A stretch of 64,000 nt of DNA, taken from the NCBI GenBank assembly GCA_016215025.1, contig JACRMI010000028.1, positions 1-64,000 on the forward strand. Direction: 5' to 3'. Within the stretch, counting starts at the first letter, position 1, and each line of letters begins with the position of its first letter. The position numbers and the translations under genes are program-made. Under the pieces are notes generated by a model. That model did not search any database. It was not told the DNA's origin and worked only from the letters and a program-made list of their open reading frames with translations. Positions 7,069 through 33,662 of this stretch are shown piece after piece. The stretch comes from Chloroflexota bacterium. GTDB lineage: Bacteria; Chloroflexota; Anaerolineae; UBA4142.

Positions 7069-10000
7069 ATGAATGCCGCGATTCAGTTAATCTCCAAGAA
7101 CTCCCTCATCCTCACCAAACTTCAACCGCCTTTGTTACGCCGCACGACGTTGCTGCGTGAACGGCTTGCCACCATTGTACGCGCTGCCATCGACCGTCGT
7201 CTGACGCTGGTTTGCGCCGGAGCGGGTTATGGCAAGACGACCCTCATCGCCAATAGTTTCGACGATGCGCCTCATCCGATAGTTTGGTATAGTCTCGGTC
7301 GCAGCGATAACGATCTCATCACTTTTTTCTCCTATTTGACTACGGGGTTGGACGCCGAGTTCCCTGGTATTGCTCAAGCCATCCGTGAGGCGCTCGACCA
7401 AGTTTCCGAGTCTCCGACGCGGGCTTTGATCAGCGCATGTGTGAACGAACTGGTCGCGTACGCTCAGCGCGACTTTGTCCTCGTCCTCGACGATTTCCAA
7501 TTGGTCGAACAAACTGCGGCAGTTGTAGAGATGCTCGATCAATTGATTTGTCACGCACCTCCCCAAGTCCATTTCGTCATCGCTACCCGCGCCGCACCGA
7601 CGTTCGCCTGCTTGCCTCGACTGCGTGCAGAGGGGCAAGCGATCGAAATCGGCGAGCAAGATTTACGTTTCCAGTCGGAAGAAGCCGATGCGCTGTTCGA
7701 TCAATGTCTCCAGTTGCAACCGCTCGATGTGCAGATGCGCGCGCTCATCGAACAGATCGAAGGATGGGCATTGGGTCTCTTGATGGCAGGACAGTCCCTC
7801 AAAAGCAATAGTCACTCTCCCGTGACGTCGCTGGAAAATGTGACTGACCGACGTGTTCTATTCGGTTATCTGAGTGAAGAAGTCATGCGCCAACAGCCCT
7901 CCGATCTCGTCGATTTCTTGACGAGCTCGGCAATTCTTTCGTGGCTGGAATCGTCGGTGTGCGACGCCGCGCTCGGTCGAGTGGATTCGGCGAAACATCT
8001 CAAACGGCTTGAACAGCAATGCCTCTTTGTGATTCCGACCTCGGACGGCTATCTGCGCTATCATCGTCTCTTCCGCGAATTTTTGCTGCAACAACTCGCG
8101 AACGACCCAGCCCGTGCCGAGGCCCTGCATCGACGAGCAGCAGTCTATTTTGAAGAGCATCAAGATTTCGAAACGGCGATCTTTCACTGGTTCGAGTCGG
8201 GGGATCATCGCCAAGCCGCGCGCCTCATCTCAGCGATCTCGGAAGAGATGCTGCGGGCAGCACGCTTCGACACGTTAAGCTTTTGGTTTGGACGATTGTC
8301 GGAAGCCGAGTTCGCGGAATTTCCAGAACTCATCGTTCGCCAGGGGCAATTGTGCGAAGCGCGCGATGAGTGGGATCATGCCTTGGAATACTATGAACGC
8401 GCCGTGCAAGCGTACACCGCGCGCGGAGATTTGATTGGATTGAGCCAGGTTCTCCGGAGTAAGGGGTATGTGCTCGATTGGCGCAAAGGCGAACATATCG
8501 AAGCCGAGCGATTGCATCGGGAGGCGCTCAGCTATGTGGGCGATGAGTATCGGCGACAGCGCGCGGCACTCATTGCCAGTCTCGCCCGCGATCAACTTTC
8601 GGCGGGCAACACGGCGGCGGCGCAAACCCTTTATCAAGAAGCGCTCGCTCTCCACGGCTCGGACCGTCAGGGACAACTGGATACGCTGCTCAATCCTGGG
8701 TCTTGGCTCTTTCATAGTCTGGGCGATTTCACGCAAGCGATTTCGGTCTTGCGCCGCGCCGAGCGGTTGGCGTACGAGTTGAACAATTCGTGCCAACTAG
8801 CGGAAACCTACAACAACCTCAGCGTGAATCTTTATTTTCTCGGACGCTATGCTGAATCGCTCGACTATGCCGAAAAGGCGCTCGCGCTCGGTCGCGCGTT
8901 GGGCGATCCGCACCAAGAAGCCTATGCGTTAATGAACCAGGCGAATGCATTCGAGATGACGTGCCGCATGAGCTATACTGATCTGTATCAGCAATACGAG
9001 CACACGTTGCGTATCGAACAGGCACTGGGCGATCGTCGTTTTAGCATTGCGATCCTCGTCTTTATGATGATCCTGTCGCGGCGCGGCGGCGATCCCGCGC
9101 AAGCCGCACAGTACGGCGCGCAAGCGCTCACACTCGCGCGGGAACGGGGTCTGCGCTGGCTGACCGGCTTTGTGCTAGTTCAATTAGGCGCGGCGCGAAT
9201 TTGGTTGGACAGCGACGATGCCTCGACCGCATTGGAACAAGCCCTGCAAATCTTTGTCGATTGCGGCGACCAATTCCATTCGATGGTCGCGCATTTCTGG
9301 TTGGCGACCCTTTATCACTCTGAAAGCAACTCTGCCTTTCTTCCACATTTGCGCGAGTGCCTGCAGATCGCGGTCGCGCATCAGTACGATTATTTCTTTC
9401 GCACGGAAATCCAGGCAAGCATTCCGCTTTTGGTCTCGGCGCTGGAAAACGATTTGTGGTCGGCGTACGTCGTTCCGATTTTGGTCAAGCTCGGACCTGC
9501 CGTGGCCGATTCGTTACGCCCGCTTCTCTCTCACTCGAACAAGTCAGTCCGCGATCATGCTCAAGTTGCACTGAAAGAGATGGGAATCACTCTGCCGACC
9601 TCGCGCCGCACGCAGGCATTTGTTCCTCAGTTGACAATTCGCGTGTTTGGAAATTTTTGCGTATGGCGAGGCGAGCAGCTCATTGAGGAACGTGAGTGGG
9701 GACGCCGCAAGTCCAAGCGCCTGCTCAAGATTCTCGCGCTCAGCCCCGGACATGCTCTGCCCAAAGATATGATCGTCGAACTGATGTGGGGTGATGCCGA
9801 TCCGCAGGCAGCGAATGCGAATTTCTATCGCACGTTGTACAATCTGCGCCGGGTGCTCGAACCCCTTGCGCCGCACTCAGGCGCAAACTATATTACGCTC
9901 GACGGCGGCGTGGTGGCGTTGACGAACGAGTTGATCGCCAGGATCGATGTCGATGAATTTGTTTTTGGGGTGGAAGAGGCGCGCAAATTTGCGCGCCTGG

Positions 10001-10398
10001 GGAATCGAACTATGGCATTGAACACGTTCGTCTCGGTCGCCGAATTATACAAAGACGATCTCTCGACGGACGATCTTTACGACGATTGGGTGCAGCCAAA
10101 GCGCGAGCAATTATTGCAACTCTATCTCGGCGCGCTCAAGGAGATGGGCAAGCTCGCGCAGGCGACCGGGGATGTTGAGCGCGCGATAGAATATTTGCGG
10201 CTGGCGTTTCAGCGCGATAGCACTTCCGAACAACTTTGTCTTACCCTGCTGCAATGCCTGGTCCAAGTCGGCAGGCGTTCCGATGCGCTACAATACTACG
10301 CCACCTGCGAAAAAGCCCTCGCCGATCTTGACCTGACACCTTCGGCAGAATTACGAGCGGCAAAGCGCGCCCTCTTCGATACGCGCGCGCCCGCCTAA
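7069..10398 (+). CDS. MalT-like ATPase / TPR / C-terminal BTAD transcriptional regulator
   Basis: Walker A GAGYGKTTL, LVLDDFQ, TPR region, C-terminal winged-helix plus BTAD (LTIRVFGNFCVWRGEQ...KSKRLLKILALSPGHALPKD). Confidence 0.88.
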   Translation: MNAAIQLISKNSLILTKLQPPLLRRTTLLRERLATIVRAAIDRRLTLVCAGAGYGKTTLIANSFDDAPHPIVWYSLGRSDNDLITFFSYLTTGLDAEFPGIAQAIREALDQVSESPTRALISACVNELVAYAQRDFVLVLDDFQLVEQTAAVVEMLDQLICHAPPQVHFVIATRAAPTFACLPRLRAEGQAIEIGEQDLRFQSEEADALFDQCLQLQPLDVQMRALIEQIEGWALGLLMAGQSLKSNSHSPVTSLENVTDRRVLFGYLSEEVMRQQPSDLVDFLTSSAILSWLESSVCDAALGRVDSAKHLKRLEQQCLFVIPTSDGYLRYHRLFREFLLQQLANDPARAEALHRRAAVYFEEHQDFETAIFHWFESGDHRQAARLISAISEEMLRAARFDTLSFWFGRLSEAEFAEFPELIVRQGQLCEARDEWDHALEYYERAVQAYTARGDLIGLSQVLRSKGYVLDWRKGEHIEAERLHREALSYVGDEYRRQRAALIASLARDQLSAGNTAAAQTLYQEALALHGSDRQGQLDTLLNPGSWLFHSLGDFTQAISVLRRAERLAYELNNSCQLAETYNNLSVNLYFLGRYAESLDYAEKALALGRALGDPHQEAYALMNQANAFEMTCRMSYTDLYQQYEHTLRIEQALGDRRFSIAILVFMMILSRRGGDPAQAAQYGAQALTLARERGLRWLTGFVLVQLGAARIWLDSDDASTALEQALQIFVDCGDQFHSMVAHFWLATLYHSESNSAFLPHLRECLQIAVAHQYDYFFRTEIQASIPLLVSALENDLWSAYVVPILVKLGPAVADSLRPLLSHSNKSVRDHAQVALKEMGITLPTSRRTQAFVPQLTIRVFGNFCVWRGEQLIEEREWGRRKSKRLLKILALSPGHALPKDMIVELMWGDADPQAANANFYRTLYNLRRVLEPLAPHSGANYITLDGGVVALTNELIARIDVDEFVFGVEEARKFARLGNRTMALNTFVSVAELYKDDLSTDDLYDDWVQPKREQLLQLYLGALKEMGKLAQATGDVERAIEYLRLAFQRDSTSEQLCLTLLQCLVQVGRRSDALQYYATCEKALADLDLTPSAELRAAKRALFDTRAPA

Positions 10399-10424: not shown

Positions 10425-10475
10425 ACGCGCTCCCTCGCCCTGCAAGGGAGAGGGTTGGGGTGAGGGTCGATCATC
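10425..10475. repeat. PHPNPLP-type dispersed repeat
   Basis: gctccctcgccctgcaagggagagggttggggtgaggg; minus strand reads DPHPNPLPCRARE, a commonly seen intergenic repeat in bacterial genomes. Confidence 0.6.
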
Positions 10476-10716
10476 CTCCCGCAATCGGCGACCACAGCGC
10501 GATCCTATCCCCATCACTCAATCGATCCGCGTCCTGGCGCTGGACTCCGTTGACCAGCACGATGGCAACCTCTGCGCGCGGCAAGCCCAACCTCTCGTCG
10601 ATCAAACCTGCGATGGTGGTGTCCTCCGGAATCTCACACGCGAACGACTCGCCGATTCCCAACTCCGGACGGTACCGCCGCAAATCGGCGAACAGTTTCA
10701 CCTGAACTCGAATCAT
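10471..10716 (-). CDS. MoaD/ThiS-family sulfur carrier-like protein
   Basis: 81 aa, ubiquitin-like pattern (VKLFADLRRY...LVNGVQRQDADRLSDGDRIALWSPIAGG) with terminal GG; next to AOR. Confidence 0.85.
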   Translation of the reverse strand: MIRVQVKLFADLRRYRPELGIGESFACEIPEDTTIAGLIDERLGLPRAEVAIVLVNGVQRQDADRLSDGDRIALWSPIAGG

Positions 10717-10743
10717 CGATTACCAATTTCCACTCTCTAGTCT

Positions 10744-12576
10744 CTACTCCACGACTCCCCACAAATCCTCCAGCCCCAACTCGTCTAACTTTTGTCGCGT
10801 TGGCACTCCGCGTTCATCCCAACCCCGTAGTTGATAATAAGTCTGGAGATTTTCGTGCAATTGCGCCCGGCTGCCCGCACGCGGTCCGCCGGTCACCGGT
10901 TCCAACATGCGCGCAGGCAAGGTATCGTCCGCCACTGTGAAACCGGCGCGCAAGTTAAAGAGTCGTTCCAAATTCCAAATGCGGTCGCCCTGCGCAATCG
11001 ACTTGTCGAACGTGAAATCGATGCCCGTCGCAGGCGCCATCATCGCCACAATCTCACGGTGCGTGATCGCGAATTTCGAGAAAAGACAAATGCCGGTCGA
11101 ATCGACAAAACCGGTGGAATTTTGGAACGGACGGCGCACCAATTCTTCTTTGCCTTCGAGCGTGTCGGGCGGCACATATTTTGGAATGCCGTACAATTCC
11201 GCGGCGACGGTGTTCCCTCGCACGTGACACGCACCGCGATTCGACGTCGCGTAATGCAGCGCCATGCCCTGGAACACACGCGGACTATACGCCGCCATCT
11301 CCAATTTCTTGACGCCCATAAAAAGTTCCGGATGCCCATAATGCTGCGCCAATCGATAGCTGCCATCCGCGAGCAAAGCGCCGAACTCGCCATCGCGTTC
11401 GCCCATCATCGTCACCGCGCGCAGCATCGCATCGTGATCGCCAAAAACAAGTGGAAAACCAATGTCGCTCTTTGGCACGTACCCTTTTTCGTACAGCTCC
11501 ATCGCGCACGCCACGGTCGAGCCAGCCGACATTGCATCGAGTCCATAATCACCACAGAGATAATGTGCCTTCGCAATCGCATCTAGATTCGACACGCCGC
11601 ACAATGCGCCAAACGACCAGGTCGTTTCGTACTCCGGTCCTTCGCCATGACTTTTATACGGACCATCCTTGACCTCGGTCACGCGCGTACATGCAATCGG
11701 GCAGGCAAAGCAAGCACGGTTTTTGATGAGTATTTGTTCACTCATCGCTTCGCCGCTGGTCGCCGCTGCACCCTGAAAGACCTCTTCCAAAAAGTTGCGC
11801 GTCGGATACGCGCCCATTTCGTTGATCAGATTCACAAGATTCGCCGTGCCGTACGCGCGAAAACTGCCAAACGACACCGGATCGCTCACGATTTTTTTGA
11901 GCACGTCGAGCGCCGCGTACCAAAAGCGCTCCGCGTCCGCTAACTTGATCGACCCCGTGCCGTGAATGGCGACCGCTTTCAAATTCTTGCTGCCCATGAC
12001 CGCGCCCACGCCGGAACGCGCCGCAAAACGATAGCGGTCGTTGACGATGCCGGCCAAGAGTGAAAGTTTTTCGCCGCCGGGACCGATGCACGCGACTTTG
12101 GCGTGAGGACTCGTTTCCGCTCGAACCAGTTCATCTGTTTCTGGCGGCGTCTTGCCCCACAATCTTTCCGCAGAACGAAATTCGATCTTGTCGTCTTCGA
12201 TCCAGAGATAGGTCGGCTGGTCTGCCTTGCCCTCGATAATGATCACATCATACCCGGCGAATTTCATCTCAGGTCCAAAGAATCCGCCGGAATTGGAACA
12301 CGCGATGGTTCCGGTCAGCGGCGCTTTGCACACGACCACATAACGCGACGCAGCAACTGCTCCCGTGCCAGTCAATGGTCCCGTGCCGAACATCAATTTG
12401 TTTTCGACGCTCAACGGATCGATTGCCGGATCGATTTCGCGATAAAGCAGATACGACGTTAGCCCGCGTCCGCCAACAAACTTTTCCGCCAATTCCAGAT
12501 CGAGTGGCTCGCGTGTCGCCCGTCGATTCGTCAAATTTATTCTGAGTATTGTTCCCGTGTAGCCAAAAGTTGTCAT
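10744..12576 (-). CDS. Aldehyde:ferredoxin oxidoreductase (AOR family, tungsten/molybdenum)
   Basis: GYTGTILRINLTNRR, VGGRGLTSYLLYRE, GTGPLTGTGAVAASRYVV, GPEMKFAGYDVIIIEGKA; ATG at 12576 preferred over the ORF start at 12618. Confidence 0.93.
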   Translation of the reverse strand: MTTFGYTGTILRINLTNRRATREPLDLELAEKFVGGRGLTSYLLYREIDPAIDPLSVENKLMFGTGPLTGTGAVAASRYVVVCKAPLTGTIACSNSGGFFGPEMKFAGYDVIIIEGKADQPTYLWIEDDKIEFRSAERLWGKTPPETDELVRAETSPHAKVACIGPGGEKLSLLAGIVNDRYRFAARSGVGAVMGSKNLKAVAIHGTGSIKLADAERFWYAALDVLKKIVSDPVSFGSFRAYGTANLVNLINEMGAYPTRNFLEEVFQGAAATSGEAMSEQILIKNRACFACPIACTRVTEVKDGPYKSHGEGPEYETTWSFGALCGVSNLDAIAKAHYLCGDYGLDAMSAGSTVACAMELYEKGYVPKSDIGFPLVFGDHDAMLRAVTMMGERDGEFGALLADGSYRLAQHYGHPELFMGVKKLEMAAYSPRVFQGMALHYATSNRGACHVRGNTVAAELYGIPKYVPPDTLEGKEELVRRPFQNSTGFVDSTGICLFSKFAITHREIVAMMAPATGIDFTFDKSIAQGDRIWNLERLFNLRAGFTVADDTLPARMLEPVTGGPRAGSRAQLHENLQTYYQLRGWDERGVPTRQKLDELGLEDLWGVVE

Positions 12577-12649
12577 TGGTTCGCCCAGTCGAGTTGCGTG
12601 GTGTGTGTTCCGACTCACAAATCACGTTTCACGCATCGTGCATCACGAT

Positions 12650-14338
12650 TCACTTGATCCCCTGCACCAGCAATTTTGATTTTTCACTCGCATTCGTCTT
12701 CATCCGTTCCATCATCGAACCGGTAGGAACACGAAAACGAATCGCGCCCGGCGCGCAATACGCCGCGCACGCTGGCTCGCCGTTGCACAAGTCGCATTTG
12801 ATCACGCAACTCTTGTCGTCCGCGTACGTGATGCCGCCATATGAACACGCCTCGATGCACAACATGCACGACGTACAATTCTCATCGATGACGCGAATGA
12901 TGCCCAACGCTTCATCGCGCACGAGCGCATCGAACGCGCACGCCGCCAGGCAGTGCGCTTCCGGACAATGAATGCAGGGCACGGGCGAGAAAGAATGATC
13001 GCTTTCGTACGCGACCTTGATTCGCAATTGCGTGGGTCGCGCAAGTTGATAGTGATGGATCGAGCATGCCATCTCGCACATGCGGCATCCCGTACACAAC
13101 TCTGCGTCAATTACCAATAACCGATTACCAACGGCCTCTTCTTCTGATTCGATTTGAATCGATGCAGTTTTTGATGCGCCGACCACTTGTTTCGATTCGA
13201 CGGCGAGTGCCGCTTCAAATGAACCGGACGGCGTCCACTTGGTTTGCAGCAGCGCGCCAAATCGATTGCGGCGAAACGCATCGAACGCTTGCGGCTTGTC
13301 GCCGGAGACAACCCACTCGGCGAGATGGCGACCGATCACGGGACCAAGCGCAAAGCCGTGTCCGCAAAATCCGCTGGCGACCAAAACATTCTCGTTGAGC
13401 CGGTCGATGATTGGAATACCGTCCGGGGTCGATGGATCGAGTCCGCCCCAGGTTCGCACAAGATTCACGTTTTCCAAAAATGGAACGAGCCGAACAAGGT
13501 GCTCAGCAGCAAGCTGCAGGTTTTTGCTCGTCGTCGCTTCATTCTCGGCTTGCTCGATCAGCCCACCGCCGAAATGCACGCCGCCATGCTTCGTCTGTCG
13601 AAAAAATAAATCCGCCGCACCCACGCCGAACATTTGCTGGAACAGCGGCGCCGTCGCTTCGGTGACGAGCGACTCGTAGCGCATGTTGGCGAGCGGCAAA
13701 TCGAAACCGAGATTGAGACAGAGCGCGCGTGTGCCTGCGCCCGCGGCGATAATCACCGTTCGCGCTTGCATTTCACCGCGCGTCGTTTCGATCACGGCGC
13801 TACCGGAATCCGTCTGACGAATGTTGCGAACTTGACAGCCAGTTATAAATCGCGCACCCAGCTTGCTTGCAGCTTGCGCAAAACCGGAGGTGAGCTTGAG
13901 CGGATTCGAGTGCCCGTCGGTCGGACAAAAACTTGCACCGAAAACACTTTCGCGACGCAGTGCAGGGACCATTTCGCAGGTTTCCGCTTGACCCAGCCAA
14001 CACACGTCGAGACCCTGGGACTGTTGGCGCTTGATGTCAACTTGCATCGGGCGAATATGATCTACGGTTTCGACAAGGCGTAGATTACCGCGCTGAACGT
14101 ATTCGATGTCAACGCCGAGTTCATCGGACAACGTCGGAAATAGCACCACACTTTCCACGGCAAGCGAAATCTCAGCCGACACGCGCGCCGATTGTCGCAC
14201 TCCGCCGCCCGACCGTCCCGATGCGCCGCTGCCAATTCCGTTCCGTTCGAGCAACATCACATCGACGCGGTGTTTCGCCAAAAAATATGCTGCCGCGCAG
14301 CCGACGATTCCGCCGCCGACAATCACTACATCTGTCAC
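12650..14338 (-). CDS. DAO-family FAD amino-acid/N-alkyl-amino-acid dehydrogenase fused to a four-cluster [4Fe-4S] ferredoxin domain
   Basis: N-terminal VVIVGGGIVGCAAAYFLAK and C-terminal DAO pattern (GGLDPSTPDGIPIIDRL...ASGFCGHGFALGPVIG), then CTGCRMCEMAC, CIHCPEAHCLAAC, CTSCMLCIEAC, CDLCNGEPACAAYC; GTG start at 14338 preferred. Confidence 0.88.
   Translation of the reverse strand: MTDVVIVGGGIVGCAAAYFLAKHRVDVMLLERNGIGSGASGRSGGGVRQSARVSAEISLAVESVVLFPTLSDELGVDIEYVQRGNLRLVETVDHIRPMQVDIKRQQSQGLDVCWLGQAETCEMVPALRRESVFGASFCPTDGHSNPLKLTSGFAQAASKLGARFITGCQVRNIRQTDSGSAVIETTRGEMQARTVIIAAGAGTRALCLNLGFDLPLANMRYESLVTEATAPLFQQMFGVGAADLFFRQTKHGGVHFGGGLIEQAENEATTSKNLQLAAEHLVRLVPFLENVNLVRTWGGLDPSTPDGIPIIDRLNENVLVASGFCGHGFALGPVIGRHLAEWVVSGDKPQAFDAFRRNRFGALLQTKWTPSGSFEAALAVESKQVVGASKTASIQIESEEEAVGNRLLVIDAELCTGCRMCEMACSIHHYQLARPTQLRIKVAYESDHSFSPVPCIHCPEAHCLAACAFDALVRDEALGIIRVIDENCTSCMLCIEACSYGGITYADDKSCVIKCDLCNGEPACAAYCAPGAIRFRVPTGSMMERMKTNASEKSKLLVQGIK
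13108..13132. repeat. TTGGTAATYG-type low-complexity repeat inside the fusion linker
   Basis: caattaccaataaccgattaccaac lies between DAO and ferredoxin domains; similar ccaattacc tract at 10717-10740. Confidence 0.5.
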
Positions 14339-14340
14339 AC

Positions 14341-14449
14341 TCAACTCCGGATTGGAGGTTGGAAGTTGGAAGTTGGAAAGTAATCGACAGTTCGTGTCCA
14401 ACCTCCAACTTTTAACTTTTAATTTCCAACTTCCAACTTCTAACGTCTA
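14341..14449. repeat. Inverted low-complexity TTGGAAG repeats between two operon genes
   Basis: ttggaggttggaagttggaagttggaaag opposite ccaacctccaac...ccaacttccaacttc. Confidence 0.75.
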
Positions 14450-15882
14450 GCATATCCATATCCAACATGATCTTCCATCGCCACAGCGGCTAAGCCAGTC
14501 GCCCCAACGATGCTGAGCGGTACCGGCTTGACTGGCGTACGCGCGGTGAATATGCCAACCGATTCGACGCTCGTGTTTGTTTCTGCCGCGATGATTTGCG
14601 CCGCGACCGGTCCGCAGATGCGCCCCTGGCAGCGTCCCATGCCGCAGCGATTGTACGTCTTGAGCGCATTGAGTTGCATCACGCCAGCGCGCGCGGCCTC
14701 GCGAATTGCGCCCGCGGTGATTCCTTCGCAGCGACAAACGATCACATCGCTCGCGATGGAAGAGAACAAGCCGGACTTGATTGTAAACATCGCGCTCAAC
14801 GATTCAACATCCGCGCGCGTTTTTTTCCACTCGCGACGCTGCGTGAAATCGTGTCCATTCTCTGTGCGCCGCGATGCGTAACCTAACTGCCGCGCCGCCG
14901 CCAATCCCGCAATGCGCCCTTCGAGCAACGCAACCTCAACGCCGCCGATACCGCGCACTTCACCCGCCGCAAAAATCCCTTCTCGACTCGTCTCAAGGTC
15001 GTCGTTCGTTTTCGTCGCCAGTCCGCCAAAATGCGGATCGAAATATTGATCGCAGCCAGCCAGGCGTGTCAACTCCGTCGCGGGGATGAAACCATAGTTG
15101 ATGCAAATCGTATCGACGGCGAGTCGTTCCTGGGTGCGTGAAGCCGGTCGCCCGCTTGAATCGACTTGAGCGATGATGGCTTCTTCGACTTGATCTTTGC
15201 CCGATACTCCGATCACTGCATAGCCGTACTTGATCGACACGCCCGTTTGCATCAGGCGCTTTTGATGCGCCATGCCCTGTCCGATCTTGCCCCACTGCCC
15301 GAACAATTTCGATGCGTGCGAAAAAAATTCGGTGCGCGATTGCAATTCCAAGATCGCGACGATGTCCGCGCCCGCGTCGAGCAGTTGCACAGCAGCAAGT
15401 TGCAACAGTGGTCCCGTCCCTGCGATCAACACGCGCTGTCCAACGACCAGTCCTTGCCCTTTGAGCAACAACTGCGCCGCGCCAACCGTTGTTACGCCCG
15501 GCAGGGTCCATCCCGCAAAGGGCACGATGCGCTCGTACGCGCCGCTCGCGATGATTATTTTTTTGGCCTGAAGACGTTGCGCGCCGTCAGGACCGTAGAG
15601 ATCGAGCACGCGGTCAGAGGTGATGTTCCAAACGAGGGTGTTGCATTTGAGGTGAATCTGGGGGTGATTTAGTTTGTCGAGCAGTTCGCGTCCATGCTCG
15701 GTATTCTCGGCGAGCGAGTTGGGGAGTTGTCGCGAATTAAATGATGCCGCAGGTTGCTTGAAATATTGCCCGCCCGGTCGCGCGTACTCATCGATGAGCG
15801 TAACATCCGTGCCTGCTTCTGCCGCCGCGACCGCTGCGGCGACACCCGCGGGGCCTGCGCCCACAATCGCGATCTCGGTCAC
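14440..15882 (-). CDS. HcnB/sarcosine-oxidase-alpha-like FAD/NAD(P) oxidoreductase with BFD-like [2Fe-2S] domain
   Basis: VTEIAIVGAGPAGVAAAVAAAEAG; VLIAGTGPLLQLAA; CRCEGITAG...NRCGMGRCQGRICG; GTG at 15882 overlaps the previous stop. Confidence 0.9.
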   Translation of the reverse strand: MTEIAIVGAGPAGVAAAVAAAEAGTDVTLIDEYARPGGQYFKQPAASFNSRQLPNSLAENTEHGRELLDKLNHPQIHLKCNTLVWNITSDRVLDLYGPDGAQRLQAKKIIIASGAYERIVPFAGWTLPGVTTVGAAQLLLKGQGLVVGQRVLIAGTGPLLQLAAVQLLDAGADIVAILELQSRTEFFSHASKLFGQWGKIGQGMAHQKRLMQTGVSIKYGYAVIGVSGKDQVEEAIIAQVDSSGRPASRTQERLAVDTICINYGFIPATELTRLAGCDQYFDPHFGGLATKTNDDLETSREGIFAAGEVRGIGGVEVALLEGRIAGLAAARQLGYASRRTENGHDFTQRREWKKTRADVESLSAMFTIKSGLFSSIASDVIVCRCEGITAGAIREAARAGVMQLNALKTYNRCGMGRCQGRICGPVAAQIIAAETNTSVESVGIFTARTPVKPVPLSIVGATGLAAVAMEDHVGYGYARR

Positions 15883-16166
15883 AGTGTTTCTCTCAATTCG
15901 ATCTTGTTTCCATCGCGCGCTTCGGTCATGCACGCGCGCACGTTCGGCACACCATCCACCGTGACGAGACAATCGAAACAAATGCCCATGCCGCAAAATA
16001 ATCCGCGCGGCGCGCCGCTCACATTCGTTCGAAACGCACGTCGTCCGCTTGCCATGAGCGCCGCGGCAATACTCTCGCCTGCGAATGCGGACACCGGTTC
16101 TCCATCCACTTGAATCGTAATCCGCGTTCCACGTTCAACTGTTTCCAATCGTCTCGCTACTGCCAT
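15879..16166 (-). CDS. HcnA-like plant-type [2Fe-2S] ferredoxin subunit
   Basis: 95 aa; CGMGICFDCLVTVDGVPNVRAC (C-x4-C-x2-C-x11-C); 4-nt overlap with next gene. Confidence 0.88.
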   Translation of the reverse strand: MAVARRLETVERGTRITIQVDGEPVSAFAGESIAAALMASGRRAFRTNVSGAPRGLFCGMGICFDCLVTVDGVPNVRACMTEARDGNKIELRETL

Positions 16167-16200
16167 TATCTCTCCAAAACTGTCCGCGAATCAAAGCCCT

Positions 16201-16366
16201 TGTCATTCTGAGGAGCGATACAAAAGAGTGAATCTCGAAATGAATCCGATTAAGCGACGAAGAATCTTCTTCTTCCGATATTGGAGATTCTTCGCTTCGC
16301 ATCCTTCGACGCCACTCCGTTTCGCTCCGTTCCGCTCACGCTCCGCATGCTCCGCTCAGAATGACA
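16201..16366. repeat. TGTCATTCTGAG...CTCAGAATGACA palindromic element inside the operon
   Basis: Terminal inverted repeats tgtcattctgag / ctcagaatgaca, with outer ccgcgaatca / tgattcgcgg arms flanking. Confidence 0.75.
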
Positions 16367-16403
16367 CTTTAGCGGACATTCGCGTGATTCGCGGATAAAA
16401 GTC

Positions 16404-17807
16404 TTATCCAAAAAATCCGAACGGCTCGGTGAAAGTGTAATCGCTGCCGACGAACGGGATGCCGGTCATGGCACACGCTTCGAGCGATACGGCGCGCAGG
16501 TCTTCGCGCTCCAAGTTGTGAACGTTGCTCTTGCCACACGCTTTTGCCATGATCACCAACTCGTTCGTCATTGCCGTTATCAGATTCGCAACGCGCTGCG
16601 CGGCGAGTTTCACCTGCAATCGCTCGCGCAGTTCCGGCTTTTGCGTCCCGATGCCAAACTCACATTCGCCTTTTTCGCACTGCAAACAAACGGTGCAGCC
16701 CATCGCTACGAGCGCCGCCGTTCCGATATACACCGCATCCGCGCCAAGTGCAATCGCCTTCGCCACATCTGCACCATCGTGAATGCCGCCCGCGATGATG
16801 AGATTCACTTCGTCCTTCACGCCCATGTCTTCGAGCGCGCGTGTGGACTGCACCACCGCCGCGAGCGTGGGCATACCCAGATGATCGATGGCGATTTTCG
16901 GCCCCGCGCCAGTGCCACCTTGCATTCCATCGATCACGATCCCATCGACACCCACTTTCGCCGCAATTTTCACATCCTCGTAAACACGACCTGCGCCGAC
17001 CTTAAGAAAAATTGGTTTTTCGTAATTGGTGATTTCGCGCAGCTCCGCGAGTTTTACCGGCAGATCGTCCGCGCCGAAAATATCGCCGTGCCGTGGATGC
17101 GATGCGAGATCAATGCCGACGGGCAACTGTCGAAACGCCGCAATTTCGGGCGTGACTTTTTCCGCCATCAAGTGACCCGATAAACCGGGCTTGGCTCCGA
17201 TGCCAAACACCAACTCGATGGCGTCGGCTTGTTCGAGCGTGTGGAGCGAAAAACCAAATCGACTGGGACAGACTTGAATGATTTGGCGATACGAGTTGGC
17301 GCGCTCTTCGGGGAGCAAGCCGCCCTCGCCATTGTTCATTGCTGTCCCGACACGCGCGCTGCCCACCGACAAGGCGATCTTGGCCTCTTTGCTGATCGCG
17401 CCGTACGACATCGGCGCGATCATGATCGGCGTTTCGAGCACGAGCGGATTTTTGGCGAAGCGCTTGCCCAACACAGTGCGCGTGATGGCATCTTCACGAT
17501 ACGTATCGACGGGCATCCGCGAGAGACCGGCCGAGAGCAAGATCAAATCGTCGAAGGTTGGAAGTTTGCGAGTGGTGCCGCAGCCGCGCACGCGATGCTT
17601 GCCCGACCGCGCCTTCTCCTGAATCTCTTGCACAGTTGACGAATTCCAACCACCGCCGGTCAGCCGCGTACCGGTCGATCCTGCACCATTTCCACCTACG
17701 GTCGCGACGGCATTATCAATCGCATTGGCAACGCGCAGCGCTTTGCTGGGACAGACGTTGATGCACTTTTGGCAATCGTTACAAAGATTGGGATCGCAAA
17801 GAATCAT
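16404..17807 (-). CDS. Glutamate synthase FMN-domain protein with N-terminal 4Fe-4S motif (MgsC/archaeal GltB-core-like)
   Basis: CDPNLCNDCQKCINVCP; APMSYGAISKEAKIALSVGS; GIDLASHPRHGDIFGADDL; DGIVIDGMQGGTGAGP. Confidence 0.92.
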   Translation of the reverse strand: MILCDPNLCNDCQKCINVCPSKALRVANAIDNAVATVGGNGAGSTGTRLTGGGWNSSTVQEIQEKARSGKHRVRGCGTTRKLPTFDDLILLSAGLSRMPVDTYREDAITRTVLGKRFAKNPLVLETPIMIAPMSYGAISKEAKIALSVGSARVGTAMNNGEGGLLPEERANSYRQIIQVCPSRFGFSLHTLEQADAIELVFGIGAKPGLSGHLMAEKVTPEIAAFRQLPVGIDLASHPRHGDIFGADDLPVKLAELREITNYEKPIFLKVGAGRVYEDVKIAAKVGVDGIVIDGMQGGTGAGPKIAIDHLGMPTLAAVVQSTRALEDMGVKDEVNLIIAGGIHDGADVAKAIALGADAVYIGTAALVAMGCTVCLQCEKGECEFGIGTQKPELRERLQVKLAAQRVANLITAMTNELVIMAKACGKSNVHNLEREDLRAVSLEACAMTGIPFVGSDYTFTEPFGFFG

Positions 17808-18508
17808 GGCGACACACTTTCACGCGGCGTGAATTCCGGTTTGAACAAATGAAACGTATGCTTGCCCAATCGCGGAACCAAACACTCGAATTCATTCGGG
17901 TCGGCTTGAATGTCATTCTCCTGGAAAAGTGAATTCAACGCTTGTACATCCGCTGGTTCGAGCGGTCGCACGCGAATATTGTTGCCGATGCTCGCGACTG
18001 CGCCGCGGCGATAGATGATCATGCCGCCGTACATCGATTCGCCGGTGCGCTCGCCCACTCGGCCGAGCAACACGACCCGTCCGCCTAGCATTTGCTGCCC
18101 GGTCAACATTCCGACATTGCCGCAAACGATCACCGCCCCGCCTTTGAGTCCATAGCCCACGCGACTCCCCGCCGATCCGCGCACGATCACCGTGCCGCCA
18201 ATCATCGACGGCGCGAGATTGCTGCCCGCGTTGTTCTGCACAATCAGTTTTCCGCCAAGCATATTATCGGCGGCGTACCAACCGACGTTGCCTGTGACCA
18301 ACAGGCGCGGACCGTTCATAAAACCACCGCAGTAAAAACCTGCGCTCCCTTGGACTTGAATCTCCAATTCACCGCTCACATTCACTGCGATATTGTGTCG
18401 CGCGTGTGTGTTGCAGAGAACCACCTTGTTGCCGTTGCCAGTGAGTGCTTGCAATCGCGCGTTCAATTCGCGCTCGCCGATCTTTTCGAGGTCTAGCTCT
18501 TCGACCAT
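17804..18508 (-). CDS. Glutamate synthase GXGXG-domain protein (MgsB/GltB-alpha-like)
   Basis: Repeated G-x-x-x-x-G beta-helix pattern (GGKLIVQNNAGSNLAPSMIGGTVIVRGSAGSRVGYGLKGGAVIVCGNVGMLTGQQMLGG). Confidence 0.92.
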   Translation of the reverse strand: MVEELDLEKIGERELNARLQALTGNGNKVVLCNTHARHNIAVNVSGELEIQVQGSAGFYCGGFMNGPRLLVTGNVGWYAADNMLGGKLIVQNNAGSNLAPSMIGGTVIVRGSAGSRVGYGLKGGAVIVCGNVGMLTGQQMLGGRVVLLGRVGERTGESMYGGMIIYRRGAVASIGNNIRVRPLEPADVQALNSLFQENDIQADPNEFECLVPRLGKHTFHLFKPEFTPRESVSP

Positions 18509-19401
18509 ACCCGCACCTCCCCTGGTGTCAATTCGGACGCAAAGATATCAGGATCGACCGCTTCAAACGAAACTTGCTCTGAGCCAAGCAGCAACAAATC
18601 GTCATTTTGATAGTACAGCACCGGCTTGATGCCGAGGCGATCACGCACCGCACCAATCTCCGATCCAGTCGCGACCAGACAACTGAACACGCCATCGAAA
18701 TCGTCGAGCGTCGAGCGCAGGGCTTGCTCCAACGTTCGCCCCTCGCGTTTGATTTTGTACGCGAGATAGTGCGCGATGATCTCCGAATCATTAAAGGTCT
18801 TGCATTGAATGCCCTTGCCTTGCATTCGACGGCGCAGCGTAAAGTAATTCGTGAGTTGTCCGTTGTGAACGACCGTGAGTTCCGGATAAAGCTCGGAGGC
18901 AAAAGGATGAGCAAAATTGATGTTGTCGATGCTTTCAGTTGCCAGGCGGGTATGCCCAATCGCGTGACGCGCTTTGAGATCGCGCAGATGAGCGAACTCG
19001 TTCAAGTATTCCGCCGTGCCAACATCCTTCATAATGTCCATGCGATCACTCATGCTATGAACACACAACGATGGCTCGGCGTTGATATGGCGGTACAGCC
19101 GGTCGAGGTCTGGCTTGTCGGCTTGGAGCGTGAGGCGTGCCATCGTGTACGGCGAGTTGGTCCGCTGTAAATCGCATTCCCCCAACTCGGCGTGTTCGCT
19201 GACAATGCGTCGCAACAGCGGCAAGTCTTCATTCGGATGCCGCAGCGACACACGTGCGACGACATGATCGCGCGGATGATCAAGATAGAGCGCGGTGCCC
19301 GTCGCATCGCAACCGCGATGCCGAATTTCGTACAGCATTCGGTACATCGCATCGCCTACGTTATTCTCATGCTTGACCATGATCCCAGCAATACCGCACA
19401 T
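18493..19401 (-). CDS. Class II glutamine amidotransferase (MgsA/GltB N-terminal-like)
   Basis: N-terminal MCGIAGI (Cys2 nucleophile), IGHTRLATES, VVHNGQLTNY. Confidence 0.92.
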   Translation of the reverse strand: MCGIAGIMVKHENNVGDAMYRMLYEIRHRGCDATGTALYLDHPRDHVVARVSLRHPNEDLPLLRRIVSEHAELGECDLQRTNSPYTMARLTLQADKPDLDRLYRHINAEPSLCVHSMSDRMDIMKDVGTAEYLNEFAHLRDLKARHAIGHTRLATESIDNINFAHPFASELYPELTVVHNGQLTNYFTLRRRMQGKGIQCKTFNDSEIIAHYLAYKIKREGRTLEQALRSTLDDFDGVFSCLVATGSEIGAVRDRLGIKPVLYYQNDDLLLLGSEQVSFEAVDPDIFASELTPGEVRVWSKS

Positions 19402-19472
19402 AATTTCTCCTCAAGACCTTCCAGGTCACCTTGGCTCTGCAAGGAGCCGTGACCTGGAAGGACTAAAACTCT

Positions 19473-21035
19473 CTAGTTCGTCGGCGCGTTCGGATCGTAA
19501 TTGAACCGCATGTCGACCGGCTCGGCGACATCCAACGTACTCAAGTCGCGTCCGATCTGAGCGACGACGCCGGGCTTGGTCGATTTCAAAAAGACGATGT
19601 ACAATAGACCCAGGACGATCCATGCCAGGGCGACGTACGGCATTGTCTGCATGAGTGGATCGGGCGCGGGCTGAAGCGAACCGTAGAGTGCTGCGCCTGC
19701 GCCGATGATCGCGACGATTGGGATAACCAAGTGCTTGAGAATTGAGTACTCATTTTTCAATTCGCGGCGGAACCACACAATCGCAGCCAACGAAACGAAC
19801 GTGTAGATCACTTCGATGGTAATGGCGCCAATGCCCGCCAGAAATCCGAATTCGGTATCTGAACCGGAAGTAGCTCCCGTCGGCAAGACAGCCGCAAAAA
19901 CTATCGCGACAATTGCGGCAAGCACGAGGACTGCGCCATTGGCAATGTAGGGCGTCTTGTAAGTCGTATGGGTACGACCAAGCGCACGGGGCAGCGCACC
20001 ATCGCGCGCAATGGCGAAAGCGACACGTGCCGATGTGGTCAGACAACCCAACGCAACTGCAAACCCATCGACAATCGCTGCGAGAAAGACAAGCGCGACG
20101 AGCCAATCGCCGCCATAAATGCCGGCGATGCTGAAGAGTGCGGGCTTGGTCGGGTCTGCCCAGTCTTTCGTGTCGTTCACGCCAAAGCCGATTGAATAAG
20201 CGTACGTCACTATGGTGTAGATCAGCACGGCCGCCGCAACCGTGCCGACAATCGCAATCGGCATCGAGCGTTTGGGATCTTGGGTTTCTTCCGCAAGCAC
20301 GGCCGAGGATTCAAAGCCAGTGTACATGAGAATGGCGAAGATCATTCCGTACGTAAGACCTTGAAGACCGCCAGCGGCATCGAGCGAGAATGGCACGGCG
20401 CTGTGTCCTGCGGCGCCGCCGCGAATGATGACGTAGAGCGCGAGCAGGACCACCAAGGCAAGCGAAATGAATACGAGCCATAACTGAGTACGAGTCGAGA
20501 TGCGCACGTCAAAGTACGTAAGAAGGAATAGAGCAATGCACTCGACCACGACCAAGGCGATCCACAAGTACGGGACCGGCTCGGCGAGAAAGCCAGCCAT
20601 GGCAAGAAATTGTGTGATCCATCCCGCCACTCCACCAATAATTGCAATCGTGAGCAAGAGCGTCGCGAACAAATAGATCCAGCCACCCATGAAACCAATT
20701 TCTGGCCCGAACGCCTTGGCCGCATAATTGTAGATCGCTCCGGCGGCATGAACGCGACTCGCAAATTGTGAAACGACGTAACCGAGCGCGACCATGGTCA
20801 AGCCGCCGAGAAACACGGCGAGCGGCGTCGCTGCGCCTGCCGCAATGGCAACGTACCCGGTCAAGAATGCCATGCTCATCACCGGACCCAGGAACGCCAA
20901 CGATTGCGAGATAACGTCCCAGGTGTTGAGAGCATTTTTCTTCAGTTGAGTGTGCGTCTCAACTGCAGTGCCCACTGCTTGTTTCCCCACTGCTTGAGGA
21001 ATGCTTTCGACTGACATAGTCCCTCCTTTGGACAA
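19473..21035 (-). CDS. APC-superfamily amino acid/amine permease
   Basis: About 12 hydrophobic segments; AILMYTGFESSAVLAEETQDPKRSMPIAIVGT typical of APC. Confidence 0.9.
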   Translation of the reverse strand: MSKGGTMSVESIPQAVGKQAVGTAVETHTQLKKNALNTWDVISQSLAFLGPVMSMAFLTGYVAIAAGAATPLAVFLGGLTMVALGYVVSQFASRVHAAGAIYNYAAKAFGPEIGFMGGWIYLFATLLLTIAIIGGVAGWITQFLAMAGFLAEPVPYLWIALVVVECIALFLLTYFDVRISTRTQLWLVFISLALVVLLALYVIIRGGAAGHSAVPFSLDAAGGLQGLTYGMIFAILMYTGFESSAVLAEETQDPKRSMPIAIVGTVAAAVLIYTIVTYAYSIGFGVNDTKDWADPTKPALFSIAGIYGGDWLVALVFLAAIVDGFAVALGCLTTSARVAFAIARDGALPRALGRTHTTYKTPYIANGAVLVLAAIVAIVFAAVLPTGATSGSDTEFGFLAGIGAITIEVIYTFVSLAAIVWFRRELKNEYSILKHLVIPIVAIIGAGAALYGSLQPAPDPLMQTMPYVALAWIVLGLLYIVFLKSTKPGVVAQIGRDLSTLDVAEPVDMRFNYDPNAPTN

Positions 21036-21048
21036 AATTCCAAACTCT

Positions 21049-21080
21049 AGAAACCAGGTTTTTCAAAAAACCTGGTTTCT
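21049..21080. repeat. AGAAACC..GGTTTCT hairpin repeat
   Basis: agaaaccaggttttt / aaaaacctggtttct 15-bp perfect arms; related element at 61916-61979. Confidence 0.75.
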
Positions 21081-21083
21081 GGT

Positions 21084-22442
21084 TTATAGATGGAACGCGT
21101 ACTCGTTGAATTCCCAGTCGGTCACGTGTGCGCGGAAACGTTGCGACTCGAGCCGCTTGACCGCACAGAATGCTTTGACAAAGTCCGATCCCATTGCTTC
21201 ACAGATGACCGCATCCTCTTCGAGTGCAGTAACCGCTTCGTGCAAATATTGTGGAATGATCGGAGTATCTGAGCTAGCAGTCGAGTAAGCATCGCCAGAA
21301 AATGGCACGCCGGGATTGAGATGATTTTCAATTCCATCGAGACCGGCGGTGAGCGCAGCGGCGAACACAAGGTAGGGATTGGCAACCCCGTCCGCGGTGC
21401 GATTTTCGACCCGCGTGCCGCCTTTGCGTTCAGGAGGGATGCGGATGTAGCAGGTGCGATTATCGAATCCCCAGACGACAAAGTACGGTGCGAATGCGCC
21501 GGGCACAAAGCGCTTGTACGAATTGACGGTCGGCGCTAACACCGCCGTGATGGCGCGCGCATGTGCGATCTGTCCGCCGATAAAACCGCACGCTAAATCC
21601 GAAAGTTGACCGTCGCCGCGTGGATCGTAAAACAGGTTTTCGCGCGTCTCGGGATGGGCGATACTCATGTGTGTGTGATAGCCGCTGCCGCCCAGATCGG
21701 TGCGCGGTTTTGCCATGAACGTCGCCATCAATCCATTCTGCCACGCGATTTCCTTGACAGCTTGCTTGTAGAAAAACGTGCGATCCGCCATATTCAACGC
21801 TTCGCCATGATCGAGATTGATTTCGAACTGACCGGGGAAAAATTCGTGACTGACCGCAAGCGCGCGGTGTCCCATCTCTTCGACCGCGTCGCAAATCTTG
21901 CGTGTGATGCCGTCGGGATCGATAGTTGCATTCCACGTGTAGACCATGCTGGGCCTTTGGGCGTAAGTGCGCCATGTACCGTTATCGCACTTGAGCAAAT
22001 AAAATTCTAATTCGCTGCCGACAATCGGCATGAGGTGGTGTTGGGCGTATTGATCGAGCACGCGCTTTAAAATATTGCGCGGCGCAAGCGGAATCGGTTT
22101 GCCCTCGTAGTACAAATCGGCGATGACGGCGGCGGTGTGCGGCTCCCACGGCAAGACGGTGAACGTGCTGAGATCAGGAATCGCGGTCATATCGGGAAAG
22201 CCCACTTCTTCGGCGGTACCGGTTCCTGCAGCGCCATTGCCGGCTAGATCGAGTGAGAACGTAGGCAGAGCAAATTGAATGCCGTGTTCGAGCACATGGG
22301 GAAATTGGCGCGCGGGAACGGCCTTTGTGCGCGCCACACCATAAAAATCGGGGAACTGGACCTTGATCGTGCGAATATGCGCTGAATCGATTTGGCGGAG
22401 GATGGCTTCTTGATTGCTGTCTGTCTGAGACTTGATCGTCAT
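21084..22442 (-). CDS. Glutamine-synthetase-fold ligase, PuuA/GMAS-like (gamma-glutamylamine synthetase candidate)
   Basis: GS-fold motifs (SELEFYLL, GSGYHTHMSI, APTVNSYKRFVPGAFAP, NRTCYIRIPPERKGGTRVENRTADGVANPYLVFAA); lacks MFDGSS hallmark of true GlnA; ATG at 22442 preferred. Confidence 0.85.
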   Translation of the reverse strand: MTIKSQTDSNQEAILRQIDSAHIRTIKVQFPDFYGVARTKAVPARQFPHVLEHGIQFALPTFSLDLAGNGAAGTGTAEEVGFPDMTAIPDLSTFTVLPWEPHTAAVIADLYYEGKPIPLAPRNILKRVLDQYAQHHLMPIVGSELEFYLLKCDNGTWRTYAQRPSMVYTWNATIDPDGITRKICDAVEEMGHRALAVSHEFFPGQFEINLDHGEALNMADRTFFYKQAVKEIAWQNGLMATFMAKPRTDLGGSGYHTHMSIAHPETRENLFYDPRGDGQLSDLACGFIGGQIAHARAITAVLAPTVNSYKRFVPGAFAPYFVVWGFDNRTCYIRIPPERKGGTRVENRTADGVANPYLVFAAALTAGLDGIENHLNPGVPFSGDAYSTASSDTPIIPQYLHEAVTALEEDAVICEAMGSDFVKAFCAVKRLESQRFRAHVTDWEFNEYAFHL

Positions 22443-23137
22443 CGCTTGTCTTCCTCTCTTTTGCTCTGTTTGAAATATCACAAGCGCGGATGCGCTGCGT
22501 GTCAACCGCAGATATTTTACAAGATGCATCTCCCAAATTTCTCCCTTTGCCATGACACGACACACCGCCCTGTCCTAGACAAATCCCCCCTGTGCCTCTG
22601 TCCGTCCCGGATTGGACTCTCATGTAGGGCAAGATACACTCCCAAGACAATTTGTGACCGCTCGAGTCCAGTCACATCCTCAACATCAACTCGGGCGAAA
22701 AGCTTGGTTCTTACTTGTGTATCGACTGTCATCCATCTCGGAGTAATATTCTGAACATTAACAATTATTTGATGAAGTTTTATGATTTTCTAACTTGCAC
22801 GATGTATCAATCCCTATAATGATTTTGCTCTTATAAAATTAGAGACAATCATAGACACGGTCGCTCGTTCGTGCTACAGAATCAAAGGCGCACCTAGCTC
22901 ATGTTGAATCCACACACAACCAATTCAACTGCGCGACCTGGTAGCCAGCTTATGAGGCAGGATGAGATACGTCTGCCTCATTCTGTTTTCACCCTCTTTA
23001 GGATCTTTCCGAAAAATACCGCTGCATAGCCCCTGACCGGCGAGACGCGGCGCTACTTTTCACACAACATGCAATACCATTGTGACCGGTTTTGTCATCG
23101 CGTGACATCGCGATGTCAAGATTTAGCGAGATCAAGT

Positions 23138-23472: not shown

Positions 23473-24459
23473 ATGGAAGATGTTGCATATTCCAAGGTTC
23501 TCACGGCAATCGTTCAACGATTTGTTCGCCTAGTGGGCGTCCCTGCCGCCTTGAATATCGCACGGCGAGTGCCAAACCTAAAGGTAGATAGCGATGGCAA
23601 TGTCGTCGATTACGATCGCGCCAATCCTTTGGCTACCGTCGTGCTATTGATCGATCAATACGGAACTGTGTTTGGCGATGTTGCCGATACCCTTGCTCAA
23701 CAAGCTACCCAATCGCTGCGACCATTGCCCCTGCGCGCTCCGCTACCCCCAAAGACCGATGGCGCTGCATCGTCCCGACCAATTACGCTCCTCATTGTGG
23801 ACGATCATATTCTGTTCCGCGAAGGTCTGGCAAGTTTGCTCTCCTCTCAGCCGGATTTTCAGATTGTAGGCCAGAGCGCAACTCTCGAAGATGCGGTCAG
23901 TCTGAGCTGCGCTCTTAGGCCGAACGTGCTTTTGTTGGATTTTGATTTACCTGCCGACGATGGCGCAGACGCGACGCGCGCGATCCTGGACGAATCCCCC
24001 GAAACGCAAATCGTGTTCCTCGGCGTCCACGAAGACACCAATCGGCTGTTTCAAGCCATTCAAGCCGGCGCCGTTGGATTTTTGTACAAGACCGTGCGCT
24101 CCGCCGAATTGTTTGGCACGGTCCGCGGGGTCACGCGTGGCGAAGCCGGAATCTCGCGCACGATTGCCCGCCGCCTCCTGCAAGAATTTTCCCAGTCACC
24201 AGTCCTAGCTTACGACAACCTAACCTCTGACGATTCCAAGCAACTTACTGCGCGTGAGATCGAAATCCTCCGCGAATTGGCACGCGGAGCCAGCAACCGC
24301 GAAATCGCCAAACGGCTGGTGATCAGCGAGAATACCGTCAAGAATCATGTACGGAATGTGCTTGTCAAACTGCACTTGCATAGCCGACGTGATGTTGCGG
24401 GCTATGTTCGTCGCAACGGTATCCAACCCTGGCGTTCCTCCAAACGCTCCGCCAATTAA
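23473..24459 (+). CDS. NarL/LuxR-type response regulator with an extra N-terminal domain
   Basis: ITLLIVDDHILFREGLASLL...VLLLDFDLP REC domain, LuxR HTH (LTAREIEILRELARGASNREIAKRLVISENTVKNHVRNVLVKL), about 95-aa N-terminal extension. Confidence 0.88.
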   Translation: MEDVAYSKVLTAIVQRFVRLVGVPAALNIARRVPNLKVDSDGNVVDYDRANPLATVVLLIDQYGTVFGDVADTLAQQATQSLRPLPLRAPLPPKTDGAASSRPITLLIVDDHILFREGLASLLSSQPDFQIVGQSATLEDAVSLSCALRPNVLLLDFDLPADDGADATRAILDESPETQIVFLGVHEDTNRLFQAIQAGAVGFLYKTVRSAELFGTVRGVTRGEAGISRTIARRLLQEFSQSPVLAYDNLTSDDSKQLTAREIEILRELARGASNREIAKRLVISENTVKNHVRNVLVKLHLHSRRDVAGYVRRNGIQPWRSSKRSAN

Positions 24460-24815: not shown

Positions 24816-24917
24816 GTGGCAGTATTCACTCTGCTCGTCGTTTACACAATCTTTATCGGACTGACTCTGATGATTACCCTCTGTGCTATTGGATTTGTCC
24901 AAGGCAACAAAAGCTAG
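24816..24917 (+). CDS. Candidate 33-aa single-TM small protein
   Basis: GTG start after gagaggt; translation VAVFTLLVVYTIFIGLTLMITLCAIGFVQGNKS; too short for the supplied ORF track. Confidence 0.4.
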   Translation: MAVFTLLVVYTIFIGLTLMITLCAIGFVQGNKS

Positions 24918-25071
24918 CCCATCGGATAAAGAAAAATCTAAACCACTTACGCACGCAAGAAATTATCTAGCCGTCTGTCATAGAAAGTGTCGAGCGATTC
25001 TCTCCGACCGGCAGCTAGTGGGGGGACTTGCCTGCGTACAGAAAACATTTCACCAAAGAGGAGGAGGAGAC

Positions 25072-30927: not shown

Positions 30928-30940
30928 GCGTTGAACTAGG

Positions 30941-30969
30941 TTGGTGCAGGAACAAAACTCCTGCACCAA
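30941..30969. terminator. Hairpin between the giant protein and the first MCO gene
   Basis: ttggtgcagga / tcctgcaccaa 11-bp perfect stem. Confidence 0.6.
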
Positions 30970-30995
30970 CGATCACGACACAAAGGAGCAACGGT

Positions 30996-32336: not shown

Positions 32337-32359
32337 GGCCGTTCAAGGAGAAATCAATC

Positions 32360-33652: not shown

Positions 33653-33662
33653 GGAGACGAAC

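Follow-up and report, generated by a model that had tools for sequence, protein, structure and literature searches.

Ten consecutive genes in a Chloroflexota bacterium of the class Anaerolineae raise the question of whether a glutamine synthetase (GS)-fold ligase, a glutamate synthase-like complex, a flavin dehydrogenase and a predicted tungsten-dependent aldehyde oxidoreductase (AOR) belong to one catabolic pathway, and which kind of substrate such a pathway would consume. The genes lie in contig JACRMI010000028.1 of assembly GCA_016215025.1, of which positions 1 to 64,000 (the window) were analysed. The run spans 10471-22565 on the minus strand and encodes, in gene order, the ligase, an APC permease, MgsA, MgsB, MgsC, HcnA, HcnB, a DAO-ferredoxin fusion, the AOR and a MoaD-like protein (Table 1). 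It had been proposed from the letters alone (hereafter the original prediction), together with ten family assignments, all of which were borne out when each family was checked by Pfam and NCBIfam. Calculated from the listed open reading frame (ORF) starts, the junctions measure 48, 71, -16, -4, 237, -118, 38, 31 and 27 bp, all being short or overlapping except for the 237 bp between MgsC and HcnA; with the probable start of HcnB, the overlap with the HcnA stop becomes 4 bp. Both the operon and its coherence have good support. As for its role, the sequence comparisons make it rather probable that it serves the catabolism of a primary amine tethered to glutamate, which would proceed via an N-alkylglutamate to an aldehyde and then, through the coupled AOR, to an acid.

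The ten genes recur in Anaerolineae bacterium DTUCFX8 (genome G014, contig JAJTXZ010000029.1; loci L039, L040 and L056), where all the orthologues are found on one contig and strand in identical order, the AOR being 89% identical to that of the window. Three further genomes (L057, L058 and L059) encode the full-length DAO-ferredoxin fusion followed by AOR, with MoaD coming next in L057 and L059 and the contig of L058 stopping within the AOR gene. In these three genomes (G448, G449 and G450) the two halves of the cluster sit on separate, broken contigs, and the order ligase-APC-MgsA-MgsB-MgsC is also found in these regions. One contig of G450 ends about 60 bp past MgsC and the other starts inside HcnA; those of G448 end after the synthase genes and start at the beginning of DAO, HcnAB being missing from the assembly. 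Whole-genome searches revealed that in all five genomes with a full-length fusion an orthologous ligase (63-79% in the four besides the window genome) is accompanied by an MgsC (50-84%). Among 396 genomes sampled from the class, three had the full-length fusion and five the ligase orthologue, with an overlap of three (hypergeometric 1e-6), and a phylum-wide sample of 400 genomes yielded no additional fusion or ligase. As to the ligase-only genomes, the cluster of G011 is partial and meets a contig edge after MgsB, while G016 has a damaged permease and retains MgsC, HcnA and HcnB without the DAO-ferredoxin fusion, AOR and MoaD. That G014 repeats all ten genes in order and on one strand, and that fusion and ligase co-occur in the class sample, indicates that the arrangement is more than chance. 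The modules thus belong together as had been proposed, the AOR included, given the conserved order and the co-occurrence.

Alignment showed that the catalytic residues are kept in the window ligase and in the cluster ligases, with the ammonium-site Asp50' and the flap Glu327 lost in all seven cluster ligases; Phe occupies the position of Glu327, Ser53 is not conserved and Tyr179 is also lost in the window enzyme. In RhGmaS the counterparts of Asp50 and of the flap Glu are Ala48 and Trp300, respectively (PMC7948447). Such loss alongside an intact catalytic set makes an amine ligase likely, and the protein is predicted to be probably of this type. A tree was built with the cluster ligases, E. 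coli GlnA and PuuA, IpuC, an aniline-type dioxygenase-cluster ligase and three glnT from plasmid-borne N-methylglutamate (NMG) clusters. The cluster ligases fell on the PuuA/IpuC side (support 100/98), and a single clade was rejected by the approximately unbiased (AU) test both with the NMG-cluster glnT (p=0.0007) and with GlnA (p=1e-4). Hence, from the GMAS-like glutamylation originally predicted, the amine ligase remains probable, but the enzyme stands outside the GmaS clade. This position means that methylamine is not the favoured amine, and methylamine was rejected as a substrate on the basis of the first AU result. Grouping with PuuA/IpuC-type enzymes could also point to a Puu-type catabolism of polyamines or amino alcohols, with AOR standing in for aldehyde dehydrogenase, the more so because the nearest plasmid relative of the ligase adjoins genes for an APC permease, a PuuD-like hydrolase and an aldehyde dehydrogenase. 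However, PuuD, PuuB and PuuC are absent from the operon, and the Puu route keeps the gamma-amide during oxidation, whereas here MgsABC and an opine-type dehydrogenase are encoded, which renders this explanation highly improbable.

The three MgsABC subunits are encoded in order, and MgsC is 47-50% identical to its NMG-cluster counterparts, from which it forms a separate lineage. In G450 a different MgsABC lineage occupies the same cluster position, and in G448 two distinct sets are arranged in tandem (L093, 8752-14748, G448:C4). That a second lineage replaces or accompanies the first at the same place suggests that the synthase step is required, in line with its original inclusion in the set. 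By gene order and similarity, MgsABC is predicted to be of the N-alkylglutamate synthase type. The window MgsC has an N-terminal 4Fe-4S motif as well as C-terminal cluster Cys, the latter being lost in the Acinetobacter and Rhizobium homologues, and electrons would probably enter from ferredoxin via these Fe-S clusters.

HcnA and HcnB together cover residues 11-94 and 165-595 of the 996 residues of sarcosine oxidase alpha, ending before its folate T domain, and DAO matched the sarcosine oxidase beta subunit in a profile search. The best solved homologues are 1y56_A for HcnB and its partner chain 1y56_B for DAO, 1y56 being a dye-linked L-proline dehydrogenase. A [2Fe-2S] HcnA, an HcnB with FAD and [2Fe-2S], and an FAD-type DAO are encoded together, as is characteristic of the opine/proline-type HcnABC enzymes. 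Moreover, genes for octopine and saccharopine dehydrogenases border the unfused HcnA-HcnB-DAO triplets of related genomes. The homology to 1y56 and these opine-gene neighbourhoods suggest that the dehydrogenase is of a kind fit to act on a secondary-amine amino acid, for instance an N-alkylglutamate. Three of the triplets (L042, L043 and L044) lie by octopine dehydrogenase, some with saccharopine dehydrogenase or MmgE/PrpD nearby, and are apparent opine catabolism clusters in Chloroflexota. Unlike the NMG controls L124, L125 and L129, the operon has no SoxD, SoxG, T-domain or folate gene among its ten genes. Judging from these comparisons, the dehydrogenase is an opine/proline-type HcnABC trimer without a folate domain and not a folate-linked MgdABCD. 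The MgdABCD-like oxidation of the original prediction is therefore retained as far as the family acts on secondary-amine amino acids, but not in its folate-linked form. The same findings bear on an ordinary NMG pathway for methylamine, in which AOR would replace folate in formaldehyde disposal. The pairing of a GS-fold ligase with MgsABC typifies NMG clusters, and the formaldehyde-oxidising enzyme FOR belongs to the AORs; nevertheless, the phylogeny of the ligase and the missing folate-related genes argue against this pathway, as does the AOR itself, which scores far higher against the broad-range enzymes (682 bits, 9mqx_D) than against FOR (297 bits), so that we consider it very unlikely.

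Sixteen conserved Cys, corresponding to motifs for four [4Fe-4S] clusters, are contained in the last 140 residues of the DAO protein, whose best matches are AorA from the AOR of Aromatoleum (8c0z) and, in 9mqx, the small subunit. The predicted fusion is thus real, but its partner is not a generic ferredoxin: on the strength of these matches it is an AorA/WorS-type subunit, that is, the AOR's own electron-transfer subunit. Stand-alone homologues of this subunit are encoded directly before the AOR gene in Methanogenium, Thermoplasmata and Bacillota. The fusion is confined to genomes having this AOR, and DAO orthologues in G641 and G577 (53-60%) are unfused, without adjacent AOR and without the ligase; the neighbourhoods of these unfused orthologues (L102 and L103) gave no substrate clue. 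A C-terminal helix, such as mediates polymerisation through AorA in AORAa-like filaments (nanowires), appears here in a low-confidence model only. The best PDB match of the window AOR is 9mqx_D (686 bits), and its orthologues form one clade (support 100/100). The motifs ACFACPIAC, GPEYE, CHVRG and GICLF are kept, so that the cluster Cys and the active-site Glu and His are present. The window genome (G000) holds an unusually large number of AOR paralogues, twelve in all (contigs C68, C138, C76, C73, C176 with two, C156, C59, C29, C188 and C89, plus window 10744-12618). The one on C89 (L097, 1332-5440) has an unrelated neighbourhood, with a MoaD-like gene and an unfused, 28% identical DAO upstream of AOR.

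The kinship of the AOR with that of Aromatoleum, AORAa, which acts in the degradation of phenylalanine, benzylamine and benzyl alcohol (PMC10413684), brings forward an aryl-alkylamine route, in which 2-phenylethylamine or tyramine, for example, would be converted to an arylacetate and then by PaaK to arylacetyl-CoA. A PaaK-family ligase is indeed encoded upstream of the amine ligase in three genomes (directly in G448, 2.2 kb away in G016 and 8.6 kb in G014), PaaK copies are few (3-5 per genome), and in G448 MoaD is followed by genes for an acyl-CoA dehydrogenase and a PaaX-like regulator. Yet the window genome has no PaaK near the operon, the PaaK of G000 and G448 lie in clusters of their own with 2-oxoacid oxidoreductase-like and Liv-type transporter genes, and Asn replaces Tyr468, the pi-stacking residue of AORAa, in every cluster AOR that covers the site, although Phe511 and Phe514 are kept. 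Furthermore, G014 and G016 are of the same genus, so that their PaaK cases are not independent. PaaK near the cluster is accordingly a weak aryl-acid hint, phenylethylamine is retained as a lead only, and the route as a whole appears unlikely. The separate PaaK loci, L144 (G000:C55) and L142 (G448:C4:33000-52000), comprise, from their sequence starts, a PaaK-family ligase, a putative two-subunit indolepyruvate-oxidoreductase-like pair and Liv-type ABC transporter genes, and are possible aryl-2-oxoacid clusters.

From the observed gene content, its conservation, the fusion and the ligase residue losses we infer the following reactions, channelling and electron routes for glutamate-tethered amine oxidation. 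The APC permease would import a primary amine R-CH2-NH2, probably larger than methylamine, which the ligase would convert with ATP to gamma-glutamyl-NH-CH2R. MgsABC would then free the amine from the gamma-amide, channel it to the FMN site and build N-(CH2R)-glutamate on 2-oxoglutarate, with electrons probably reaching it through its Fe-S clusters. This opine-like product would be oxidised by the HcnA-HcnB-DAO trimer to glutamate and RCHO, and the AOR, docked on the DAO-fused AorA/WorS domain, would turn RCHO into RCOOH, with MoaD/WorX assisting cofactor maturation. The fusion would in this way couple amine and aldehyde oxidation both physically and electrically, so that the aldehyde would be handed on and low-potential electrons would exit by the four-cluster wire, possibly to the ferredoxin-type synthase. 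By this scheme four electrons would be released from amine to acid, and two would be consumed by the synthase if it works on 2-oxoglutarate like glutamate synthase; the low-potential electrons from AOR could supply these two. A bolder version is a metabolon in which the N-alkylglutamate dehydrogenase with its fused AOR wire subunit transfers the aldehyde directly and electrons return via ferredoxin to the Fe-S synthase. We hold this possible but doubtful; if true, it would represent a redox-self-supplied amine-to-acid pathway and a new class of WOR (tungsten oxidoreductase) complex.

Several points weigh against the proposed pathway. As far as sequence goes, the ligase acceptor may be amino-acid-like instead, and AlphaFold modelling of the DAO-AorA fusion with five sequences gave a pLDDT of 38, unusable for coupling geometry. 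The 237-bp MgsC-HcnA gap could divide two transcripts; unrelated genes are inserted in G014 between HcnB and the DAO-ferredoxin gene (about 4.4 kb) and between the latter and AOR (about 3.2 kb), meaning that co-transcription is not universal; and the HcnB of G449 is more diverged (50%) and has no HcnA beside it. The gap, the inserts and the G449 case would also fit two unrelated adjoining operons, one (GS-MgsABC) dealing with amine nitrogen and the other comprising an opine or amino-acid dehydrogenase with AOR. Against such a division stand the co-occurrence in five genomes and the unbroken MgsC-HcnA-HcnB run seen both in G014 and in what G016 keeps of the cluster, and we find it quite improbable.

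Table 1. Genes and widest junction of the predicted amine operon, in gene order (window coordinates).
Feature	Position	Strand	Evidence and remarks
GS-fold gamma-glutamylamide ligase, PuuA/IpuC side of family (predicted)	21084..22442	-	PF00120 359 bits, under gln_synth_III cut-off; ORF opens 22565, likely ATG 22442
APC-family permease, probable amine importer	19473..21035	-	AA_permease_2, 124 bits; position between ligase and MgsA kept in relatives
MgsA/GlxB-like class II glutamine amidotransferase, N-terminal Cys	18493..19401	-	GATase_6/7; starts MCGIAG
MgsB/GlxC-like GXGXG protein	17804..18508	-	PF01493, 70 bits
MgsC/GlxD-like FMN synthase core, N-terminal 4Fe-4S motif, C-x2-C-x2-C-x4-C cluster motif kept	16404..17807	-	PF01645, 345 bits; alignment with NMG-cluster homologues
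MgsC-HcnA gap, 237 bp, with imperfect inverted repeat; widest junction	16167..16403	-	
HcnA-like [2Fe-2S] subunit	15879..16166	-	PF13510 (Fer2_4) 104 bits; TIGR01372, SoxA residues 11-94
HcnB-like FAD/[2Fe-2S] subunit, without T domain	14440..15882	-	Pyr_redox_2, SO_alpha_A3, Fer2_BFD; TIGR01372, SoxA residues 165-595 only; likely GTG 15882
DAO (SoxB/proline dehydrogenase beta-like) plus AorA/WorS-type domain, 16 cluster Cys, residues 427-569	12650..14338	-	ORF opens TTG 14401; GTG 14338 likely
AOR/WorL aldehyde oxidoreductase (tungsten predicted), clade of AmWOR1/PfAOR/AORAa	10744..12576	-	AFOR_N/AFOR_C; ORF opens GTG 12618; ATG 12576 likely
MoaD/ThiS-like small protein, WorX-like	10471..10716	-	PF02597/PF14451; conserved after AOR

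The inverted repeat of the MgsC-HcnA gap is MITE/REP-like and lies at 16203-16364 (TCATTCTGAG...CTCAGAATGA); contigs of G450 and G448 end at or near the place matching it. An Rfam scan of the window gave no matches, and the results of a promoter and terminator scan were close to shuffle expectation. The operon is flanked on the opposite strand by genes for a TPR/BTAD regulator and a LuxR-type response regulator (window 7069-10398 and 23473-24459). Further on, window 24883-35519 encodes a 2014-aa SdrD_B/CarboxypepD_reg repeat protein followed on the same strand by three multicopper-oxidase-domain proteins.

No paper on this gene set came up in literature searches, as originally supposed, nor any described pathway in which a dehydrogenase is linked to an AOR wire by protein fusion. 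Among the closest known systems is the NMG pathway (GmaS, MgsABC, MgdABCD), which likewise uses a gamma-glutamylamide ligase, a glutamate synthase-like MgsABC and a flavin dehydrogenase regenerating glutamate, and whose clusters share the order glnT-amidotransferase-glxC-FMN synthase; the operon differs in its non-GmaS ligase, its HcnABC-like dehydrogenase without folate domain, the delivery of the product to AOR and the N-terminal 4Fe-4S motif of MgsC. With Puu and other gamma-glutamylated amine routes (IpuC, TdnQ) it shares the ligase subfamily and the loss of ammonium-site residues, but it has no gamma-glutamyl hydrolase, and the amine would reach the alpha nitrogen as N-alkylglutamate before oxidation. 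The opine oxidases, HcnABC and 1y56 have the same [2Fe-2S], FAD plus BFD-type [2Fe-2S] and DAO components, whereas here DAO carries a fused AorA/WorS domain and is tied to an AOR. Finally, the multisubunit AORs (AorABC of Aromatoleum, 8c0z; AmWOR1, 9mqx; WOR classes I-V, PMC13328260) also combine WorL, a four-cluster WorS-type subunit and WorX, the latter called ThiS-like (PMC13328260). The four-[4Fe-4S] WorS of classes II-III (WorLS, WorN) is found here too, unusual in being fused, namely to the C-terminus of the predicted amine dehydrogenase; a search of the main text of the WOR survey of 2026 (PMC13328260) turned up nothing on fusion, amine or glutamate. According to this survey, a metabolic role has been defined for at least one member in only five of 92 WOR clades. 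The present AOR is tied to an upstream enzyme by gene order, co-occurrence and fusion, so that its substrate should be findable by working along the pathway. If the proposed pathway is true, glutamate-tethered amine oxidation would extend past C1 amines and folate, and the operon would offer a case in which the wiring of an amine dehydrogenase to a tungsten enzyme is fixed genetically, its predicted distinguishing traits being the non-GmaS ligase, the opine-type dehydrogenase and the undescribed DAO-AorA fusion.

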